NCBI GenBank assembly: GCA_001724025.1
Contig: MEDJ01000010.1
Coordinates: 1 to 64,000 of the forward strand
Direction of reading: 5' to 3'
Length of the DNA: 64,000 bases
Source of the DNA: Acidobacteria bacterium SCN 69-37
GTDB taxonomy: Bacteria; Acidobacteriota; Vicinamibacteria; Vicinamibacterales; SCN-69-37
Positions 60,493 to 64,000 of this stretch are shown here, piece by piece; position 1 is the stretch's first letter, and every line of letters begins with the position of its first letter. Both the position numbers and the translations under genes were made by a program. The notes under the pieces were generated by a model. That model was not told the origin of the DNA. It saw only the letters and a program-made list of their open reading frames with translations, and did not search any database.

Positions 60493-61266
60493 TCAGGCCC
60501 CGAGCGTGCGTGCCATGACGCCCTGGAAGACCTGCAGGGCGTTGAAGCCGGCGTGGTTGACGATCGGCAGCACGGCCGATCGTCGCCGGATGTAGATCAG
60601 GCCCCAGATCAGGCCCAGCAGGCCGACGGCAATCGACACGTCGATGCCCTGGTCGGCGTGCAGGGCGCCGAACGCGATCGTGAACAGGACGAGGCCGAGG
60701 TGAATGCCGCCGAGGCGCTGTTCGAAACGGTGGAGGATGAAGGCGCGCTGGAGTTCCTCGCGCACGCCGCCCGCCACGATCACCACCACGATGAACACGG
60801 CCGCATCCAGCGGCGAATCCATGAACGCGGTGAGCGGATTGACGAGCACGTTCTGTGTCCACGGGAGGACCGCGCGCAGGGCCAGCACGACCAGCGCCAC
60901 GCCAATCAGCACCACCGGGACCAGCATCAGGCCCAGCCGTGCCTCGCGGCCGACGGGCCGCTGCCCCAGAAAGACGTCGCGTGGGCGTTCGCCGCTCGCG
61001 CGCAGGAAGAACCCGATGAGGCCGACGACGAGCAGCGTGTCGAGCAGGCTCAGCGTGGCGAAGAAGGGCAGCGACAGATCGTCTCCGTCGGTCGGGGACA
61101 GGGGTGTTGCCATCAGCAGGACGGAGGCGATCAGCACCTGCGTCGGCACGCCGCAGACGAGCAGGGTCTCCATGAGCGCGAGCCAGCGCGGCTGCCGGGG
61201 ATGCGCGTCGGGGATGGGCAGGGACACGGCGGGCGCCGCGATCACGGGATCGTCCACACCGGGCAC
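60493..61266 (-). CDS. CPBP-family intramembrane glutamic endopeptidase
   Basis: A 257-residue membrane protein with about seven helices. The Rce1/CPBP catalytic motifs are present: REELQRAFIL (the EE pair), FGALHADQG (FxxxH) and VNHAGFN (HxxxN). Members cleave prenylated or membrane peptides, and in bacteria some serve bacteriocin or signal maturation. GTG start; other in-frame GTGs near it are possible. It leads the minus-strand unit with the GT-C gene three bases away. Confidence 0.82.
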   Translation of the reverse strand: MPGVDDPVIAAPAVSLPIPDAHPRQPRWLALMETLLVCGVPTQVLIASVLLMATPLSPTDGDDLSLPFFATLSLLDTLLVVGLIGFFLRASGERPRDVFLGQRPVGREARLGLMLVPVVLIGVALVVLALRAVLPWTQNVLVNPLTAFMDSPLDAAVFIVVVIVAGGVREELQRAFILHRFEQRLGGIHLGLVLFTIAFGALHADQGIDVSIAVGLLGLIWGLIYIRRRSAVLPIVNHAGFNALQVFQGVMARTLGA

Positions 61267-61351: not shown

Positions 61352-61368
61352 GGCCCGTCTGACGGGCC
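61352..61368. terminator. Perfect hairpin in the CPBP-nrdJ divergent region
   Basis: GGCCCGT (61352-61358) and ACGGGCC (61362-61368) pair around CTG. It is flanked by five A's on the left, so on the minus strand the stem is followed by a T-run, the form of an intrinsic terminator reading toward the CPBP gene. It probably insulates the two divergent units. The 354-bp gap between CPBP and nrdJ otherwise holds the sites listed next. Confidence 0.5.
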
Positions 61369-61371
61369 TTG

Positions 61372-61419
61372 TCCCCGTATGTCGTGGTAGGGATGGCTGT
61401 TATGCACAAGATGTCGTGG
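61372..61419 (+). promoter_or_regulatory. Tandem NrdR-like boxes upstream of nrdJ
   Basis: The sequence ATGTCGTGGTA occurs twice, at 61379-61389 and 61411-61421, exactly 32 bases apart. Read as 16-mers (61372-61387 and 61404-61419) they match the known NrdR consensus ACACwATATmTwGTGT at 9 and 11 positions by my count. NrdR sites characteristically come in pairs about three helical turns apart. The pair lies just upstream of the nrdJ -35 element. Confidence 0.55.
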
Positions 61420-61428
61420 TAATCGACC

Positions 61429-61457
61429 TTGACAACGCCAGGGGCGAGGCGCATAGT
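61429..61457 (+). promoter_or_regulatory. Promoter of nrdJ
   Basis: TTGACA (61429-61434, perfect -35), 17 bases, then CATAGT (61452-61457, four of six). The leader would be about 155 bases, with GGGGAGG just before the nrdJ ATG. I looked for a cobalamin riboswitch in this leader and did not recognise one. Confidence 0.6.
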
Positions 61458-61620
61458 TCGGCTTCCGGTTTATCGGCGACGCGGACCTGTCCGGCCTGCG
61501 GAGTCTGGACCATCGACATACCAGTCCCCTTGCCCGCGGCGACGCGTTGCCGTGTACGGGGGAGACGTTGACGCACGGATCGGGTGACGCCGAGGCGCCC
61601 GGCCAGGGGAGGACAGCAGA

Positions 61621-64000
<2,380 letters not shown>

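Follow-up and report, generated by a model that had tools for sequence, protein, structure and literature searches.

Layout of the nrdJ locus

The window analysed here, the whole stretch of 64,000 nucleotides (64 kb), ends within nrdJ. Upstream of this gene lie a promoter, two predicted NrdR boxes that contain a direct repeat, and a terminator-like hairpin on the opposite strand:

61352–61368, minus strand: terminator-like hairpin, then TTTTT, for leftward transcripts; a neighbour, outside the operator
61372–61387, plus strand: distal predicted NrdR box (weak), TCCCCGTATGTCGTGG; C4 and G13 kept, position 6 is G, not A
61388–61403, no strand assigned: inter-box spacer, TAGGGATGGCTGTTAT, 16 bp, without the CCTAA common among relatives
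61404–61419, plus strand: proximal predicted NrdR box (strong), GCACAAGATGTCGTGG; top-scoring 16-mer of the window
61429–61434, plus strand: -35 hexamer TTGACA, with a 17-bp spacer to the -10
61452–61457, plus strand: -10 hexamer CATAGT; in relatives mostly CATATT or CATAGT
61620–64000, plus strand: nrdJ, class II B12-dependent ribonucleotide reductase, ATG at 61620, running beyond the window end

The hairpin sits between the nrdJ operator and a divergent CPBP-type gene (60493–61266). As the first-pass annotation had proposed, the downstream gene encodes a class II ribonucleotide reductase, its product scoring 1312 bits against NF005122/PRK06556 (cut-off 859). The perfect TTGACA and the 17-base-spaced promoter that it described were likewise recovered, and shuffled versions of the promoter stretch held 0.0 such promoters on average. 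Its statement that the repeat ends nine bases before TTGACA is correct if the count starts where the 16-mer box ends (61419); from the last base of the repeated 11-mer the distance is seven.

With a terminator-like hairpin on the minus strand, the repeats might be thought to belong to an RNA element, either a riboswitch or a small RNA transcribed leftward as far as the hairpin at 61352–61368. Yet Rfam gave no above-chance match here and none at gathering score in 20 loci, the nrdJ leader was no more stable than its shuffles (z 1.64), and what is conserved is the promoter and the sequence upstream of it. A riboswitch or structured leader before nrdJ was rejected on the Rfam and stability results, and an RNA element as a whole is scarcely credible.

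A pair of boxes upstream of the promoter

The 11-mer ATGTCGTGGTA occurs at 61379–61389 and 61411–61421, at an offset of exactly 32 as first reported, in both cases before nrdJ, and the genome (4.43 Mb) contains no further exact copy. The copy number by itself would suit a chance repeat beside a promoter, since by estimate about 2 exact copies of an 11-mer are expected in 4.43 Mb and 2 were counted. However, ATGTCGTGGTA is the sole exact 11-mer repeat at offset 32 within the window (offsets 30–33 give 2), and both sites are kept at the same offset in relatives; conservation already refutes chance, to which we attach a negligible probability. Each repeat corresponds to the right half of a predicted 16-bp NrdR box, and the two boxes lie 32 bp apart from centre to centre.

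We took as defining features of an NrdR operator two 16-bp boxes with a spacer of 14–17 bp (or 24–27 bp), C4 and G13 in each box, a position upstream of a ribonucleotide reductase operon, conservation in relatives, and a genome-encoded NrdR with Zn-ribbon, ATP-cone and DNA-reading residues. All five were found here: the spacer is 16 bp, distal and proximal boxes alike carry C4 and G13, the pair precedes nrdJ, and conservation and the regulator are described below. For four NrdRs tested in vitro, the common range of functional spacers is 14–17 bp (PMC12051234). We take C4 and G13 to be the GC pairs, at a distance of nine bases, that matter for binding in Streptomyces coelicolor; inverting them in a single box there weakens binding 50-fold (PMC9110341). 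The published expression C.[AT].A[AT].[AT].G is passed by the proximal box and failed by the distal box at position 6 (G); because this expression is a search filter and not a rule of binding, it was not counted as a defining feature.

The skeleton of the proximal box is canonical (C4, A6, A8-T9, T11, G13), its core CACNANATNTNGTG has a single occurrence in the genome, and at 19.05 bits with a lineage matrix it is the best 16-mer in the window, as it is with a matrix of E. coli boxes only. The distal box reaches 5.96 bits with the lineage matrix (rank 7 of 63,985 in the 64-kb window), which bears out the earlier remark that the first site is the weaker. Such weakness, the lack of A6 and the better distal boxes of several members of the window's own family could mean that NrdR works mainly via the strong proximal box and that the distal box is vestigial in this species. 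We consider this unlikely: the distal box retains C4, G13, the central AT and T11, its right half is the same as the proximal one base for base, and a single intact box in E. coli binds 530–1000 times more weakly (PMC12051234).

Conservation in relatives

Our sample comprised 108 non-redundant nrdJ upstream regions, placed in the order Vicinamibacterales from record titles and including some loci whose records are labelled as other phyla. The CACNANATNTNGTG core, with at most one mismatch, was found in 87/108 regions compared with 0.94 in shuffles. A box followed by TTGAC 7–11 bases past the core was present in 93 of the 108, mostly at a distance of 9 (61 regions) or 10 (20 regions). In other genomes CACNANATNTNGTG alone was not specific, control patterns being about as frequent; what is informative is where it lies, before nrdJ, and not the pattern itself. 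The published expression, applied as a pair with a 14–17 bp spacer, matched 67/108 regions versus 0.2 in shuffles.

When a symmetric matrix of the proximal box was slid upstream in the 93 loci, a set chosen for having the box and TTGAC within 7–11 bases, the sole peak was at offset 32, with 71/93 loci positive and a mean of 0.15 versus −18.4 for the next shift; the next best shift had no positives. Both C4 and G13 of the distal box are retained at this fixed offset in 76/93 loci. A motif pair is therefore shared by the nrdJ upstream regions of relatives, the first of the checks suggested in the first-pass annotation.

The pair in the window is the best in 64 kb with the lineage matrix (25.0), and it still ranks first when the window's family is left out of the matrix (20.9 bits, the next independent pair being below 0). 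With a matrix of six NrdR-bound E. coli boxes, their sequences taken from PMC12176259, it again ranks first in 64 kb, at 14.7 versus 6.3 for the second, so that a comparison with known NrdR boxes, in the spirit of the published-matrix scan suggested at the outset, points the same way. Since the lineage matrix and the anchoring of the loci share the proximal core, the evidence that is independent comes from the peak at offset 32 and from the E. coli matrix. The idea of a diverged lineage box did not survive: the proximal box is canonical and the boxes of relatives are near-textbook (e.g. CACAATATGTTGTG), only the distal box here being degenerate. In the nrdJ upstream regions of a few relatives (L090, L096), an NrdR-like palindrome runs directly into TTGACA (CACTACATGTTGACA), and the box seemingly overlaps the -35 rather than lying nine bases upstream of it.

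The same alignments bear on whether the repeats are the operator of another regulator, be it DnaA, LexA or another. In E. coli, nrdA is a target of DnaA, and TTATGCACA at 61400–61408 resembles a DnaA box, with one mismatch to TTATCCACA. Its equivalent occurs in only 1/93 loci, whereas the NrdR palindrome is found in 93/93 by selection and in 87/108 unselected regions. The DnaA box was rejected for want of conservation, and another regulator at this site is very improbable.

Many relatives carry a further element. CCTAA lies within the inter-box spacer in 52/93 loci, at one and the same position in 46 (1.5 after shuffling), and is accompanied by a distal box in a TTGCG variant (e.g. L032, L036, L046, L153); it is absent from the window's family. 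The combined pattern ATNTTGCGNNNGNCCTAA was found in 14/40 genomes, once in each, and all 14 occurrences are directly before nrdJ. As a tentative suggestion, the distal TTGCG and the fixed spacer CCTAA may form a further determinant of the nrdJ operator in many families of Vicinamibacterales other than the window's own, and NrdR might act there with another factor or need a particular DNA shape.

The regulator and a probable second operator

NrdR is a widespread repressor that turns down the genes for DNA building blocks when dATP is plentiful. One match above cut-off to the NrdR Zn-ribbon family was found in the genome, another of the suggested checks. The protein is complete, with 152 residues, both CxxC pairs of the Zn-ribbon, an ATP-cone and the DNA-reading residues D15, R17 and RRRR at 26–29. 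Among proteins of solved structure, its best relatives all bear the name transcriptional repressor NrdR, and the Zn-ribbon was matched in 78/80 related genomes. The nrdR gene (contig C1) is not adjacent to nrdJ (contig C10), and a box scan found no NrdR box at nrdR itself.

The genome also encodes a class I reductase, nrdAB (contig C24), preceded by CAACAACATATTGACT and GCGCTAGATATTGGGG at an offset of 31, which make up a second predicted NrdR box pair:

L121:1185–1231 (G000:C24): predicted NrdR box pair upstream of nrdAB
L121:1219–1435 (G000:C24): cobalamin riboswitch before nrdAB, 97.7 bits

The riboswitch overlaps the second nrdAB box and extends on from there. The boxes overlap TTGACT and TAGATA, which we read as a -35/-10 pair; the automatic scan did not call the pair. 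Matches of microRNA type in Rfam at L121 were far under their gathering scores and were discarded. At the nrdA loci of five relatives, a pair at offset 30 or 31 tops the scan in 5/5, weakly in one, and the riboswitch is present in 3/5. The same NrdR probably controls class I nrdAB too.

A search for an ATP-cone in the complete NrdJ ORF found none. The dATP feedback on the class II reductase is therefore probably transcriptional, and as NrdA of the same genome has two ATP-cones, such feedback may matter most for NrdJ.

Discussion

What the analysis shows directly is the sequence, its conservation, the distance between the sites and a regulator encoded in the genome. On this basis we consider it very probable that each repeat forms the right half of one box in an NrdR pair serving as operator of the nrdJ promoter, with NrdR binding, repression and a nucleotide response as predicted consequences. 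The NrdR proposal of the first-pass annotation is thus supported, the pair being kept in relatives and nrdR present in the genome. Its broader suggestion, NrdR control extended to a lineage with a diverged box, is supported for the lineage and not for the box. A known mechanism in a new lineage, and an ordinary member of a known system to which NrdR is predicted to bind, is a well-supported description of the locus.

Structures from S. coelicolor and E. coli suggest that at high dATP, NrdR carrying ATP or ADP plus dATP would form a tetramer that grips both boxes, three helical turns apart, and kinks the DNA; the kinked complex would keep RNA polymerase off the nrdJ promoter. At low dATP, NrdR would release the DNA and nrdJ would be expressed. 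A start site about seven bases past the -10 would put the proximal box centre near -53 and the distal one near -85, so NrdR may occupy the place of an UP element, where kinking could hinder polymerase.

Three points count against this interpretation. NrdR boxes frequently overlap the site of polymerase, but here the whole pair precedes the -35; the distal box, with its G at position 6, fails the published expression; and the nrdR gene is without a box of its own. Boxes wholly upstream of the -35 have a precedent in Streptococcus pneumoniae nrdHEF (PMC12051234), where -35 and -10 are both downstream of the pair as they are here, although the spacers there are 24–26 bp and not 16 bp. Tight binding in E. 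coli requires both boxes (PMC12051234), so with a weak distal box affinity here could be low.

In S. coelicolor, NrdR acts on the operators of nrdRJ (class II) and nrdABS (class I) (PMC9110341), and according to PMC4991794, citing Borovok 2006, a cobalamin riboswitch acts on class I. With class I nrdAB bearing its own box pair and a cobalamin riboswitch, the circuit here resembles that one: a single NrdR, box pairs with a spacing of about three turns ahead of the class II operon and of the class I operon, and a riboswitch on the latter in both. The two differ in that nrdR here lies apart from nrdJ and has no NrdR box that the scan could find, and that the nrdJ pair is entirely upstream of the -35 with a spacing of 32 rather than 31. 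The boxes of E. coli nrdHIEF, nrdDG and nrdAB (PMC12176259) are likewise 16 bp with conserved C4 and G13, a 15–16 bp spacer and, at times, one poor box in a pair; they serve other reductase classes and are placed differently relative to the promoter.

A literature search for NrdR with Acidobacteri- returned an incidental mention only. A published NrdR-box scan took in all GTDB representatives (PMC12051234, section 4.6), and the lineage was therefore probably already included, unnamed.

In summary, our understanding of NrdR itself is unchanged. The 93 aligned promoters yield a lineage matrix for NrdR boxes and TTGACA-17-CATATT promoters, which can aid annotation in Acidobacteriota. On our reading, both reductases of a mostly uncultured order, class II as well as class I, would answer to the standard dATP-sensing repressor, and the cobalamin riboswitch on class I probably selects between them.
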